The translations under genes and the position numbers were made by a program. Below are positions 32,021 to 36,938 of a DNA stretch of 42,640 nucleotides, piece after piece; positions within the stretch are counted from its first letter, which is position 1; the number at the start of each line of letters is the position of its first letter. The notes under the pieces were generated by a model, which made no database searches, was not told the origin of the DNA, and saw nothing but the letters and a program-made list of their open reading frames with translations. This DNA comes from a virus, in IMG/VR virus record IMGVR_UViG_3300050132_000498, positions 1-42,640 of that record. One strand, written 5' to 3'.

Positions 32021-33084
32021 GCCGCCACTCCCGAAAATTCCAGCTCATCGCCCCACGACGTCCAGCCCTTGCGGATCCGGCGTGCCTGCAGCTCGAGATA
32101 ATCGCCTGATGTCAAGCGCTCGGTGCGCTCCAGCCATTCGTCGGGCTTGCGCGAATGCTCCATCACGGGTGCGACGATCAACTGCTGCACGTCGGCAAAC
32201 AGGCGCTTCGGGTTGCCCTTGGTGGCGAATAGGCAGATTTCCGGATTGGCGCGGGTCCAGTAGCCCTGGCCCATGTGAAAGCCTTCACCGGACGGATTGG
32301 TCTTTACCCAGGTGTAAGCCGTGGTGATGTGCTTGAAGCCGTAATGCGCGATCAGGTCGAGCGCATCCTGCAGGCACCAGTCGACCGCCCACATGTAGAA
32401 AGCGGAATCTTCCGCGGCGAGTTCGCCGACCGGCAGCCGCTTGATCTTGTCGACCTCTTCGGTCTTGTAATGCACGTTGGCAGATCGGCCGTCGCCCTCG
32501 GCCGATCGCGTCAGGAATTTCCACTGCGGATCGCTGCCGATCGAGCCGAACCGTTTGCCTGATAGCGCCAGCTCGCCGAGATCCTCGATCCGTCCGCCAT
32601 TCACGGTCCGTGCGGCATGGGCGGCGCGGCGCTGATCCAGCTCGGTCGACTTCTCATGGGCCTGAATCGGGTCGACCATGATCGCCTTGCTGGACGCCAT
32701 CCGCGCACGCATCTCGCGCACCACGCGTTCGAATTCCTCGACCGCCAGCGCCGCAGCGCGCTGGGCCTTCATCGACAGTTTCTTGTCGACGCCGATTTCC
32801 TTCAGCGTCGCCGGCGCCAGCTCGGCACCATCGGCCTTCGACGGACGGCCCTCGCGCAGATGCCCGGCCTCCTTGGCGGCGGCGAGCAGGGCGCCGAGCC
32901 AGCGCTCAACCCTCATCTGGAATTCGGTCGCATCCGCCAGCAGCGTTCGGTCCTGGACGCGCTTGGCGTGCGACTTCACGGACTCCAGATCGTCGCGACG
33001 TGACAGCACCACGCTGACCGACGTCGATTCCAGCGCCGCCGCTAACGCCGACATCGCCCGGTCATATTGCGCCAGCATGTTCAT
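32017..33084 (-). CDS. MT-A70 family adenine methyltransferase with N-terminal helical domain
   Basis: The 355-residue protein has an Ala/Arg-rich helical N-terminal part (about residues 1-180). The MT-A70 domain follows: catalytic motif SDPQWKFLT (DPPW is usual), then YMWAVDWCLQDALDLIAHYG, HITTAYTWVKTNPSGEGFHM and APVMEHSRKPDEWLERTERL, the MT-A70 end motif HSRKPDE. It is predicted to methylate adenine N6 in DNA, possibly against host restriction. The second Pro of DPPW is Gln. The ATG at 33084 overlaps the reverse transcriptase stop as ATGA, so it is translated with the DGR. Confidence 0.85.
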   Translation of the reverse strand: MNMLAQYDRAMSALAAALESTSVSVVLSRRDDLESVKSHAKRVQDRTLLADATEFQMRVERWLGALLAAAKEAGHLREGRPSKADGAELAPATLKEIGVDKKLSMKAQRAAALAVEEFERVVREMRARMASSKAIMVDPIQAHEKSTELDQRRAAHAARTVNGGRIEDLGELALSGKRFGSIGSDPQWKFLTRSAEGDGRSANVHYKTEEVDKIKRLPVGELAAEDSAFYMWAVDWCLQDALDLIAHYGFKHITTAYTWVKTNPSGEGFHMGQGYWTRANPEICLFATKGNPKRLFADVQQLIVAPVMEHSRKPDEWLERTERLTSGDYLELQARRIRKGWTSWGDELEFSGVAA

Positions 33085-34091
33085 GCCGGCGTCCCGTGGC
33101 GCGGCCCAGTGGATAGACCCAGACTTTCGATCAGGTTGGCGCTGTCGGCCCAGCGCGCGTGGCCGAGCCATGCCGCCAGAAACTTCCGCAGCCGTTCATG
33201 GTCGCCGGCCGCGCGATAGGCCGCGATCTTGCGCCGCGCTCGCGTCACGCTGTCCTTGCGCAGAAGCTTGTGGGTGGCCCAGATCCGGTAACCGAGGAAA
33301 TTCACGCCGCGGGAGACCGGAGCGATCTGCCATTTCGAGAACGTCAGGCCGAGCTGCCGACCGGCAAAGCTCTCGATCTCCTGCTTGACGCGCCTCAGGT
33401 GCTCGGAGCTGCGGCCCAGCACCACGATATCGTCCATATAGCGATACCAGAGCCGCTCACCCAAATTCTGCTGCAGATGCCGATCGAGCGTCGCGCCGGC
33501 ATAGAGGTTGGCAAATATCTGCGATGTCAGGCTGCCGATCGGCAGGCCCGTGCCATCCCGCGGCACCATGGCCTCGACCAGACTCAACGTCGCGCGGCAG
33601 GATATCTTGGCGTCGATCAGTTTCCACAGCACCTTGCGCTCGATCGAGGCGAAGTAGCTGCGGAAATCGGTCTTCAGGAAATAGAGCGGCTCACCGTTGC
33701 GGCTTTCGCGCCGCAATTCGCTCTGCAGCTGCACAACGCCGGCATGCGTGCCCTTGTTCGGTCGGCAGGCAAACGCGCGCGGCAGCAGGGCGCGATCGAA
33801 GATCGGCCCGATCACCAGGCAAAGCGCCTGCTGCGCCACGCGATCGCGGAACGGCAGCGCCGAGATCAGCCGTTTCTTCGGATCGAAAATGTGGAATTCG
33901 CGAGGCCGGCTTGAAACGTAGCTGCCATCCATCATCTCGCGCGCGAGGTCGGCGATATTGAGCGCCGAGAATTCCTTGAAGTCGAGATAGCCGGGTGTCA
34001 GCCGCTTGCCGGCCGCCGTGAAGCGCAGCGCCGCTTCCATGTTGCGCGGCGAGGTGATCTTGCCGATCAGGTTGCGATAGCGTTGGGTCAT
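33081..34091 (-). CDS. DGR reverse transcriptase
   Basis: This 336-residue protein has all main RT motifs: LKTDFRSYFASI (motif 3/A, catalytic Asp142), PIGSLTSQIFANLY (motif 4) and YMDDIVVLG (motif 5, residues 218-226), then FLGYRI. The IGSLTSQ form of motif 4 is the hallmark of DGR reverse transcriptases; retrons and group II introns have QG..SP. The start MTQRYRNLIGKI at 34091 begins the conserved domain; a longer in-frame reading goes back through the template repeat. It makes adenine-mutagenised cDNA from TR for retrohoming to VR. Confidence 0.95.
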   Translation of the reverse strand: MTQRYRNLIGKITSPRNMEAALRFTAAGKRLTPGYLDFKEFSALNIADLAREMMDGSYVSSRPREFHIFDPKKRLISALPFRDRVAQQALCLVIGPIFDRALLPRAFACRPNKGTHAGVVQLQSELRRESRNGEPLYFLKTDFRSYFASIERKVLWKLIDAKISCRATLSLVEAMVPRDGTGLPIGSLTSQIFANLYAGATLDRHLQQNLGERLWYRYMDDIVVLGRSSEHLRRVKQEIESFAGRQLGLTFSKWQIAPVSRGVNFLGYRIWATHKLLRKDSVTRARRKIAAYRAAGDHERLRKFLAAWLGHARWADSANLIESLGLSTGPRHGTPA

Positions 34092-34215
34092 TTGCGACCT
34101 GTCAGATGAGAAAAAGCCGGCCGCGGGTCTCGAAGAGCCGGATGGCTCCCTACGCCCCGCTCTGCCGGACCGTGAAGTGTGTTCGCCGAAGCAGGACAGA
34201 TGGGCTGACCACCCC

Positions 34216-34241
34216 GGCTTTTGGCGAGCAGCCAAAATGCC
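34216..34241. other. Hairpin in the spacer between TR and the reverse transcriptase
   Basis: TTTTGGC and GCCAAAA form a 7-bp stem around GAGCA. With a one-base bulge, GGC/GCC extends the stem to 10 bp. In BPP-1 the RNA 3' of TR is needed for cDNA priming, so a structured element here is of interest. The whole spacer, 34092-34322, has no stop codon in the RT frame. Confidence 0.5.
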
Positions 34242-34322
34242 GTCAGCGATTTCGGCGGAAAGCCGAAGCGCCATGGTCGACCGATGGAGCCGTGACCCAC
34301 ATCGAGCCGGAAAACGGGAGTC

Positions 34323-34448
34323 GTCACTGCGGCCGCGAGCGCCCAGATTATCGTTCGAATTGTCGGGCCAGTTGTACGCGACGTTCGCGTGGCGCGAGCC
34401 GGCGTCGTCGTCGTTGATCCAGGACCCGCCGAACATGGAAGCGCGCGG
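34323..34448 (-). repeat. DGR template repeat (TR)
   Basis: This 126-nt repeat matches VR at 34909-35036 except at nine substitutions and a 2-nt insertion in VR. On the coding strand it has 23 adenines, many in AAC, AAT and GAC codons, as in known TRs; all nine substitutions fall on them. The 3' end (GGCGCTCGCGGCCGCAGTGAC) is GC-rich and identical in both copies, and holds the candidate initiation-of-mutagenic-homing sequence. TR begins 6 nt after the Avd stop codon. Confidence 0.95.
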
Positions 34449-34453
34449 CTGCA

Positions 34454-34855
34454 TCATTTCCCCGCCTGCCCTATCAGACGCGCGGACGCGTCAGATGATT
34501 TTAGCTTCCGTTGCCAGGAACCAAGCATCTTCCCGGGCTCGGCCAGCAGAGTAAGGGCCGCGACGTGCTGTTTCGGGGTCAGGATGCGAATGTTGCCCTG
34601 GCTGAGGAAGCGCAGGAAAGACCGCAAGGTCGCGAACTCGGCATCGACGGCATAGAGCCGGGATACCTGTTTCGATTTTGCGGCGTGGTAGAGGCCTCCG
34701 ATCGGCACGAACAGTGCGGCCAGCACGGCGTCCCGTAGGACGCCATGCCGGCGCGGTGCGTTCTGCAGGATCGGATAGAGATAGGTCACAAAGGCCTCGT
34801 ATCGTTCCACGATCGCCAGGGCATCGGTTGAAGTGTTTTCGTCCCTGACGATCAT
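34454..34855 (-). CDS. avd: DGR accessory variability determinant (Avd)
   Basis: The 133-residue protein lies between VR and TR, exactly where Avd is encoded in the Bordetella phage DGR. It is all-helical with a basic surface: ALAIVERYEAFVTYLYPILQ, HGVLRDAVLAALFVPIGGLY, AEFATLRSFLRFLSQGNIRI and EPGKMLGSWQRKLK. These are features of the Avd four-helix bundle that forms a pentamer, binds RT and TR RNA, and is needed for retrohoming. No strong Shine-Dalgarno precedes its ATG at 34855, so translation may depend on the target gene ending just before. Confidence 0.88.
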   Translation of the reverse strand: MIVRDENTSTDALAIVERYEAFVTYLYPILQNAPRRHGVLRDAVLAALFVPIGGLYHAAKSKQVSRLYAVDAEFATLRSFLRFLSQGNIRILTPKQHVAALTLLAEPGKMLGSWQRKLKSSDASARLIGQAGK

Positions 34856-34865
34856 TGATGGTGAC

Positions 34866-35801
34866 TCAATCGCTGCCGCTGGCGCGCCAGCTAGACAGGC
34901 TGCAGGTGGTCACTGCGGCCGCGAGCGCCCAGAATATCGCTCGAATGGCCGGGCCAGTCGCACGCGACGTACGCGCGTGGCGCGAGCCGGCGTCGACGTC
35001 GTTGATCCAGGACCCGCCGAACAAGGAAGCGCGCGGGATGTCGGGGTCGCCGTCGTGACCCCACACCCACATGTTGCCGGTCGCCTGCATCAGGCCGAAC
35101 TTGCTGGTTCGCGCGGTGTCGAGACCCGTTGTCCGGGGATTACTGTCGCGTGACGTCTTCTCGGTCACACCGAATGCCGCGGCAAAAAATTCCTCGACGC
35201 TCAGTAGTCCCTTGCCGTGCGCGGCCATGACGGCGACGGCCGTCTCATAATCGAAGCGCTTGTAGCGCTTGCCCTTCGGATCCTTCGGGCAGTCGTCGCC
35301 ATCGCCAATGGTCACGCCGAACCGGCTGGTGCCATCCGCGGCGCAATCCGCGCCGGTCATGTAGATGTCGCACCAGAACTGGCCACCGGGCTTCTGCACC
35401 AGCGCCATGCCACGCGGATCGGCGCATGCGGGACGGAAATTCAGATCCCACAGTGAGCATGGATTGATCGCCGGAATATCATCGCCGCCTGCGCGCGCGA
35501 TTGCATTGCCGCCTGGTGCGAAGTGAAAGCCGGCGAAGCAAATGTCAGGCATCTCTCCGATCAGCTTGACGGCCTGCGGCACACCGCCGGCGCCGCAGAT
35601 CACGGCATAATCGGCGCCGATCTCCAGGCCGCCGGCCGGCATCATCACCTCCAGTTCCTCGGGGAAGTGATCGCCGCCAAAGCCGGTGCCGGATTTGATG
35701 GCAACGCTGTCGCGGCCCGTCACCTTCAGCGCGGGCGAATTCAGATCTGCCTTTGTCAGGATCGGCGTGGGCCCCTCTTCGATTCTCGCTTGCTTGTTCA
35801 T
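34866..35801 (-). CDS. DGR target protein, C-type-lectin fold, out of frame at its C-terminus
   Basis: The reading frame gives 311 residues from an ATG at 35801 with GGAG ten bases upstream. The N-terminal part (LNSPALKVTGRDSVAIKSGT) resembles attachment domains of phage DGR targets. The CLec/formylglycine-enzyme-like domain follows: INPCSLWDLNFRPACADPRG, FWCDIYMTG, GTSRFGVTIGDG, TGLDTARTSKFGLMQATGNM and WVWG. VR starts at about residue 256. A 2-nt insertion in VR (about 34973-34980) shifts the frame after SRHA, replacing the conserved end. Removing it would give a 302-residue protein ending GARGRSDHLQPV with a stop at 34891-34893, as expected for the family. The present product probably misfolds at its ligand-binding face, unless the insertion is a sequencing error. 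Confidence 0.88.
   Translation of the reverse strand: MNKQARIEEGPTPILTKADLNSPALKVTGRDSVAIKSGTGFGGDHFPEELEVMMPAGGLEIGADYAVICGAGGVPQAVKLIGEMPDICFAGFHFAPGGNAIARAGGDDIPAINPCSLWDLNFRPACADPRGMALVQKPGGQFWCDIYMTGADCAADGTSRFGVTIGDGDDCPKDPKGKRYKRFDYETAVAVMAAHGKGLLSVEEFFAAAFGVTEKTSRDSNPRTTGLDTARTSKFGLMQATGNMWVWGHDGDPDIPRASLFGGSWINDVDAGSRHARTSRATGPAIRAIFWALAAAVTTCSLSSWRASGSD
34878..34891. other. 14-nt palindrome downstream of VR (candidate DGR hairpin)
   Basis: GCTGGCGCGCCAGC is its own reverse complement and can form a 5-bp stem with a CGCG tetraloop. It starts 17 nt past the VR end, and its first base is shared with the stop codon of the restored target frame. Known DGRs often need a GC-rich hairpin or cruciform at this position for efficient homing. 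Confidence 0.6.
34909..35036 (-). repeat. DGR variable repeat (VR)
   Basis: This 128-nt copy of TR lies at the 3' end of the target gene. Compared with TR, coding-strand changes are ATG to TTG, GAC to GTC, AAC to TAC, TAC to TGC, AAC to GAC, GAC to GGC, AAT to CAT, AAC to AGC and AAT to ATT. All changes are at template A. There is one extra dinucleotide after CACGCG. The identical GC-rich 3' end fits the IMH. Confidence 0.95.
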
Positions 35802-35805
35802 GGTC

Positions 35806-35952
35806 TCATGCTCTCCAGGTTGAGCCGGCAAACCCTGCCGGCGGGGGAAACGTTTTCTTTCTGTCAAGCCAGGTTTGGATGGACATGATAATCAGCAGCG
35901 CCGTGTCGACGGCGGCGATCACCTGCAGCGCCTGGATTTCGGCGGCGGTCAT
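35806..35952 (-). CDS. 48-residue membrane-peptide gene upstream of the DGR target
   Basis: A short gene starts at 35952, overlapping the DUF5131 stop as ATGA, and ends four nt before the DGR target ATG. It encodes MTAAEIQALQVIAAVDTALL and on, with a hydrophobic helix (VIAAVDTALLIIMSI) and a basic tail (WLDRKKTF, FAGSTWRA). It fills what would otherwise be a gap in a tightly coupled operon. The target gene's ribosome binding site lies inside its last codons. Function unknown; it could be a leader peptide or small membrane protein. Confidence 0.55.
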   Translation of the reverse strand: MTAAEIQALQVIAAVDTALLIIMSIQTWLDRKKTFPPPAGFAGSTWRA

Positions 35953-36938
35953 CGCGCGACCTTCGGCATCGCGTTGTGGAGTTCGCCGTCGAGCAGACGG
36001 CCGGCGGCTTTCTTGCCGACGCGGAACGTCAAGCGGTTATCAGCCGTCGAAGCGAACTCGACACCGCGTTCGGCAAAGGCGTGATCCGGATGCCGATCAG
36101 GCGTGCCGCCATAGTGGAGTTTCATGCGGCCTGGTTTGACCGCCGTCGCGCCGTGGATCTTCCCGTGGCCAGGCAGGTGTTGGCCGACAGGCAGATACTC
36201 GCCCCATTGTTTGAACAGGAACGGCACGCCGGTCGACGCGCATTGATCGCGCAGCGACCGCGCCCAATCAGGCCGCATCGGTCGCGCGCCGCGCCCGCTC
36301 TCACCTCCCACGATCGCCCAATCGATCTCCGATAGGTCAGCGATTATGGGTCCGAGCAATGGCTCAAAGCTGATGCCAACCCACGGAATCGAAAGTCTTG
36401 CCTTCAATTCGCGCAGCCTTGAAAGATCGCGATCGGCTTCAGCCCGGTTGACGATACTGACGATCAGACCGGCATGCTTCGGCCAGGACGTTTCACCAAT
36501 TTCCGCAAGCCGCTTCTCGATCGCAGGAAGGCGCTTGGTGACGATCTGGATCTCGATTCGATTGCAGGACTTGATTAGGTCCCACGCTTCGGCAAACCAC
36601 TCGGTCGGCACTTCGAGATCGAAGAGATCAGACATCGACTGGATGAAGACGCGGCGCCTGTTGCCAATCGTTGGAATTGGCAGCCCGAAAGCCTTCGCGT
36701 TGCCGCGCATGCATTCGGCATCGGCCGCCCAATCGGAATAGCCATTATCGAGGCGGTGGATAAGTGCGGGCGCGCCGGCGATCTTCCGGCGCGGCACGCC
36801 GTTGCCCCAATGCGAGCCGCCGGTACGCTTGGCCCAGGTCTCCGCATAGCAATGGTCGCAGCCGGGACCGACCTTGGTGCAGCCCCACCAGAAGTTGACT
36901 GTCGCGTCGGTCCATTCGATGGCGGATCGATCGGCCAT
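35949..36938 (-). CDS. DUF5131 / phage Gp37-Gp68 family protein
   Basis: The 329-residue protein opens with MADRSAIEWTDATVNFWWGC, then TKVGPGCDHCYAETWAKR, the clear signature of the Gp37/Gp68 (DUF5131) family. A TIM-barrel-like body continues with VFIQSMSDLFD, QIVTKRLPAIEKRLAE, WVGISFEPLLGPI and WAIVGGESGRGARPM. The CxxxxxxCxxCY arrangement suggests an iron-sulfur or radical-SAM-like site, but the biochemical role is not known to me. It is coupled to both neighbours by overlaps. Confidence 0.9.
   Translation of the reverse strand: MADRSAIEWTDATVNFWWGCTKVGPGCDHCYAETWAKRTGGSHWGNGVPRRKIAGAPALIHRLDNGYSDWAADAECMRGNAKAFGLPIPTIGNRRRVFIQSMSDLFDLEVPTEWFAEAWDLIKSCNRIEIQIVTKRLPAIEKRLAEIGETSWPKHAGLIVSIVNRAEADRDLSRLRELKARLSIPWVGISFEPLLGPIIADLSEIDWAIVGGESGRGARPMRPDWARSLRDQCASTGVPFLFKQWGEYLPVGQHLPGHGKIHGATAVKPGRMKLHYGGTPDRHPDHAFAERGVEFASTADNRLTFRVGKKAAGRLLDGELHNAMPKVAR

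Follow-up and report, generated by a model that had tools for sequence, protein, structure and literature searches.

A predicted BPP-1-type diversity-generating retroelement with a frameshifted VR in a temperate tailed phage

Organization of the cassette

We analyzed the whole of a virus record from IMG/VR (IMGVR_UViG_3300050132_000498; 42,640 bases), hereafter the window. The record carries genes for an integrase, a repressor, a ParB-like protein, a primase, a helicase, and a NusG-like antiterminator, as well as for a terminase, portal, capsid, tape measure, tail fibre, and endolysin. A diversity-generating retroelement (DGR) lies entirely on the minus strand, with its parts in the order Mtd-like target, avd, TR, DGR RNA, and reverse transcriptase (RT) (Table 1). 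The original prediction, made from the sequence alone, had described a complete DGR of the order target, Avd, TR, and RT in an alphaproteobacterial prophage. Every part that it named was found, and the phage is temperate. The word complete holds for the machinery and the template, which are intact, but not for the target gene, which is out of frame as sequenced.

Table 1. Features of the DGR cassette, with positions in the window.
Feature	Position	Strand	Basis or remark
DGR RT, 336 aa, IGSLTSQ and YMDD	33081-34091	-	PDB 8ub7 match, tree, dN/dS
DGR RNA element, Rfam RF03022 Phage_DGR	34116-34256	-	between TR and RT; 74.6 bits
TR, 129 nt	34320-34448	-	TR/VR alignment
avd, accessory protein, 133 aa	34454-34855	-	NF033474, PF22296, PHROG 3206
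Mtd-like target gene, predicted receptor-binding tail protein	34866-35801	-	ATG at 35801; 311-aa ORF; frameshifted inside VR
Hairpin/cruciform after VR, GCTGGCGC-GCCA-GCGGCAGC	34872-34891	-	stem 7/8 paired, loop GCCA
VR, 131 nt	34906-35036	-	91% match to TR; 9/10 substitutions at template A
CGCGCG run with 2-nt insertion relative to TR (CGCG)	34972-34977	-	TR/VR alignment; spacing 586 vs 588

The cassette is flanked by a DUF5131 gene and an MT-A70 methyltransferase gene, with replication genes adjoining, and the tail genes are located about 20 kb or more away. Judging from gene type and position, it sits in the early/replication region and is probably transcribed early. Such a location prompts the question at which stage of the phage cycle expression of the tail-tip gene and of its mutator takes place. 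This placement recurs, since the cassette also has methyltransferase, primase, or DUF5131 genes as neighbours in three of the related loci (L004, L009, and L019). The adjoining DUF5131 gene (35949-36938; PHROG 2045, weak radical-SAM match) represents a gene type that is found repeatedly near these DGRs, yet is common in phages without a DGR.

Reverse transcriptase, Avd, and DGR RNA

The RT matched the solved BPP-1 bRT (PDB 8ub7) with 370 bits (E 9e-110), against 43.6 bits (E 1.8e-10) for the next best solved RT, that of a group II intron. In the tree, it grouped with the BPP-1 brt, and three group II intron RTs stood apart (support 100/100). The PDB match and the tree both place the RT in the DGR clade, and the predicted IGSLTSQ and YMDD motifs are present. 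The likely start is the ATG at 34091; a 458-aa ORF was rejected as the RT because the longer frame merely reads through the TR.

The Avd, recovered at its predicted length of 133 residues, scored 105 bits against NF033474 (curated cut-off 80), exceeded the Pfam cut-off for PF22296, and matched PHROG 3206. Compared with L003, dN/dS was about 0.16 for the RT and likewise for avd, indicating purifying selection on both. The spacer between the TR and the RT matched the Phage_DGR family with a score well above the gathering score of 50 (E 6e-12), and the same family was matched by BPP-1 and by the eight relatives tested. A gap of 63 nt (34257-34319) separates the TR from this element; its length varies among relatives.

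Target gene

The target is a homologue of Mtd by sequence (PDB 1yu1, E 8e-39) and by its predicted model (Foldseek E 2e-20), and it belongs to a tail protein family in PHROGs (E 4e-68). Its N-terminal part showed a dN/dS of about 0.28 against L003. A target with a CLec fold and a VR at its 3' end had been predicted; the gene is an Mtd homologue, but as sequenced its reading frame is broken inside the VR. By analogy with Mtd, the protein would act as the host-binding tip. The AlphaFold models have a low-confidence C-terminus in the window target and in an intact relative alike; therefore, they say nothing on damage to the lectin fold.

A second target was sought throughout the window and not found, leaving one VR-bearing target. 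Elsewhere, two sets of loci on the same contigs (L003/L093/L097 and L083/L094) have second Mtd-like targets away from the cassette, with hairpins of their own. One locus, on an Ideonella plasmid (L112), contains two DGR-like RTs and two avd genes in tandem, with an integrase adjoining.

TR/VR pair and adenine-directed variation

The predicted repeat is present, although the TR comprises 129 nt and not the 126 nt assigned to it, and its match to the VR is far beyond chance. Ten substitutions separate the two copies, nine of them on template adenines, of which the TR has 24 in 129 bases (hypergeometric P 5.7e-7); the remaining one, a G>C change, lies at the 3' boundary. Apart from this boundary base, the VR has no non-A substitution; hence, the last homing event was probably recent.

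The same bias is found among relatives. Across 65 loci, the VR differed from the TR at 1,118 of 2,277 template A sites (49%) and at 113 of 9,541 other sites (1.2%), and G>C was by far the commonest of these non-A changes (63 of 113). The loci L046 and L047, which come from different metagenomes and have an RT 58% identical to that of the window, are a natural control for DGR activity. None of 8,164 positions outside and none of 121 positions in the TR differed between them, against 19 of 30 A sites and 1 of 91 other sites in the VR. The adenine-directed variation that should accompany active relatives of the element is thus present, and comparisons such as this pair point indirectly to mutagenic homing, suggesting that the relatives are active. 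In the 65 TR/VR sets, adenine-directed change is recorded cleanly and in its natural setting, along with indels as its rarer by-product. In one locus (L017), the TR, which lies upstream of its RT, contains five single bases that its VR lacks, reflecting either donor decay or sequencing error.

Two-base insertion and broken frame of the target

The VR is two bases longer than the TR owing to an extra CG in the CGCGCG run, a difference that was overlooked in the original prediction. These two bases put the target out of frame inside the VR. As sequenced, the protein ends in ...GSRHARTSRATGPAIRAIFWALAAAVTTCSLSSWRASGSD, and the expected ...GARGRSDHLQPV, followed by its stop, is encoded in another frame, as is the usual stop of the family (TAG, 34891-34893). 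The conserved GARGRSDHL end is lost, and with it the R, D, and H residues that are invariant at the C-terminal end of 25 intact relatives. Translation of the TR in the frame of the target gives GSRHANVAYNWPDNSNDNLGARGRSDD, which shows that the frame of the TR is right and that of the VR is wrong.

Across the 65 loci, 92 of 95 VRs were in frame. The three exceptions are the window, L048, with a VR full of N, and L077, with a pair that is not an Mtd target. The insertion neighbours a mutated adenine and falls within the 0.3% of the record that the DGR rewrites. An exact search with 27 nt of the TR returned no second copy of this phage. In three relatives (L007, L016, and L035), the VR has in-frame losses of 3 nt where the TR has AAC or AAT codons.

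Hairpin after the VR

In the portions of PMC3240598 that deal with this structure, the BPP-1 VR is followed by a GC-rich hairpin with a 4-nt loop of consensus GRNA, and homing is efficient only with this hairpin. Both the size and the sequence of the loop are important there, and the tested loops described in those portions are CTTT and enlarged ones. The window hairpin has a pyrimidine at the second loop base. Its GCCA loop is unique among 94 GNNA-loop hairpins, a count in which a few targets present in two loci appear twice. The other 93 have GRNA loops (40 GACA, 29 GAAA, 13 GGAA, 9 GGCA, and 2 GATA). About ten further targets gave no hairpin in a simple scan, which was not exhaustive, and a scan for the GCCA loop variant found only unrelated DNA.

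The change to GCCA also creates a 14-bp perfect palindrome, which competes with the hairpin. Loss of the loop by a 6-nt deletion was considered and rejected; the ungapped alignment reveals a single base change, from a GACA-like loop to GCCA, with the stem kept. By analogy with BPP-1, this departure from GRNA could lower homing.

Host range of related elements

The Bradyrhizobium-like host proposed for the phage is unsupported, as the nearest named genomes with relatives of the RT are those of Mesorhizobium, Rhizobium, and Shinella. In the literature covered by our search, DGRs of Bradyrhizobium phages were nowhere described. When 397 genomes of the Mesorhizobium order were surveyed, the RT (E <= 1e-60) turned up in only two, one of which was the genome on which the survey was centred; the element is therefore rare in this order.

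Proposed mechanism and alternative explanations

We consider it highly probable (about 0.9) that the window carries a BPP-1-type DGR of a temperate tailed phage, with the mechanism described below and with a VR that is frameshifted as sequenced. The TR RNA, adjacent to the Phage_DGR RNA fold, would serve the RT and Avd as template for a cDNA, with misincorporation opposite template adenines during its synthesis. The cDNA would then replace the VR at the 3' end of the Mtd-like receptor-binding gene, and the GC-rich end of the VR and the hairpin after it would guide this replacement. We infer that expression, priming, and cDNA integration occur in this phage. The frameshifted target protein would be without its conserved C-terminal end. 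If the insertion is real, another round of homing that draws on the intact TR should bring the gene back into frame.

The possibility that the locus holds a retroelement of another type (a group II intron, a retron, or an antiphage RT), next to a repeat that arose by chance, draws on weak, generic RT matches to models of group II introns, retrons, and DRTs, each of them far under its cut-off. The 370-bit match to bRT, the Avd, the Phage_DGR RNA, the adenine-biased TR/VR pair, and the Mtd target all speak against it, and the RT tree together with these matches refutes it, leaving it a negligible probability. A decaying element, in which the target is frameshifted, the homing signal is damaged, and the DGR has ceased to function in this lineage, is improbable, though less remote. 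The VR frameshift would fit such decay, as would the unique GCCA loop with its competing palindrome, given the importance of the loop in the portions of PMC3240598 cited above. Conversely, the locus retains an intact RT, Avd, and RNA element, and purifying selection acts on the RT and avd. The lack of non-A substitutions in the VR suggests that the last homing was recent, and the G and A at the loop ends are kept, the tested loops in those portions being a CTTT loop and enlarged ones.

Regarding the insertion itself, we lean moderately towards a real frameshift. There is a considerable chance, somewhat below even, that the two bases are an assembly or sequencing artefact arising from merged reads of many VR variants, in which case the real target would be in frame and the DGR itself would stand. 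Variable VRs do assemble badly: the VR of L048 has several N and 4 gap bases and that of L063 one N and one gap, although their flanking sequences differ by no more than 1-2 bases over 2.7 kb; moreover, every clean relative is in frame. The window VR, however, contains zero N letters, all of its changes other than the insertion and the boundary base lie on adenines, and the major genes that were searched in the rest of the record have their full length. Ordinary replication slippage extending the CGCG run would also account for a real insertion, but an origin in homing seems likelier. For BPP-1, slippage of bRT has been proposed, and indels within AAC repeats are mentioned (PMC12875486).

As a tentative proposal, a real insertion born in retrohoming would mean that the RT slipped in the CGCG sequence beside a mutated adenine during a recent, error-prone event. 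The lysogen, in which the error would be tolerated, would be left with a dead receptor-binding protein, and the intact TR could restore the frame. If this proposal is true, the element both breaks and mends its own target, and the losses of 3 nt seen in L007, L016, and L035 would be in-frame survivors of a similar error. The frameshift, if real, would represent a natural failed diversification event retained in a lysogen. It makes testable how frequently DGR homing produces dead targets and whether the next round repairs them.

Comparison with known systems

In Bordetella phage BPP-1, a self-mutating cassette changes the host-binding tip protein. The BPP-1 DGR (mtd-avd-TR-brt; NC_005357) has the same part order as the window, with identities of 54% for the RT, 42% for Avd, and 37% for the Mtd-type target. 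The RF03022 RNA, the hairpin after the VR, and the adenine-directed changes are also common to both. The two differ in the site of the cassette, which in BPP-1 lies between the tail-fibre and endolysin genes and in the window beside the DUF5131, MT-A70 methyltransferase, ParB-like, and primase genes. They also differ in the gap between the TR and the RNA element, only 4 nt in BPP-1, in the hairpin loop, which is GAAA in BPP-1, and in the target, which is frameshifted only in the window.

IMG/VR and GTDB also contain Mtd-type DGRs that come from rhizobial and other phages and prophages (for example L003, L004, and L067-L071). They have the same module order, GRNA hairpins, adenine bias, and, in those tested, the same RNA family, and the RTs of L003-L044 and L067-L071 are 65-85% identical to that of the window. 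Two VR-bearing targets occur in 30 of the 65 loci, and all clean targets are in frame, whereas the window has one target, which is out of frame. BPP-1-type elements that diversify Mtd are thereby placed in a phage family of rhizobia and their relatives, and the window element is a new member of this well-described, already known type.
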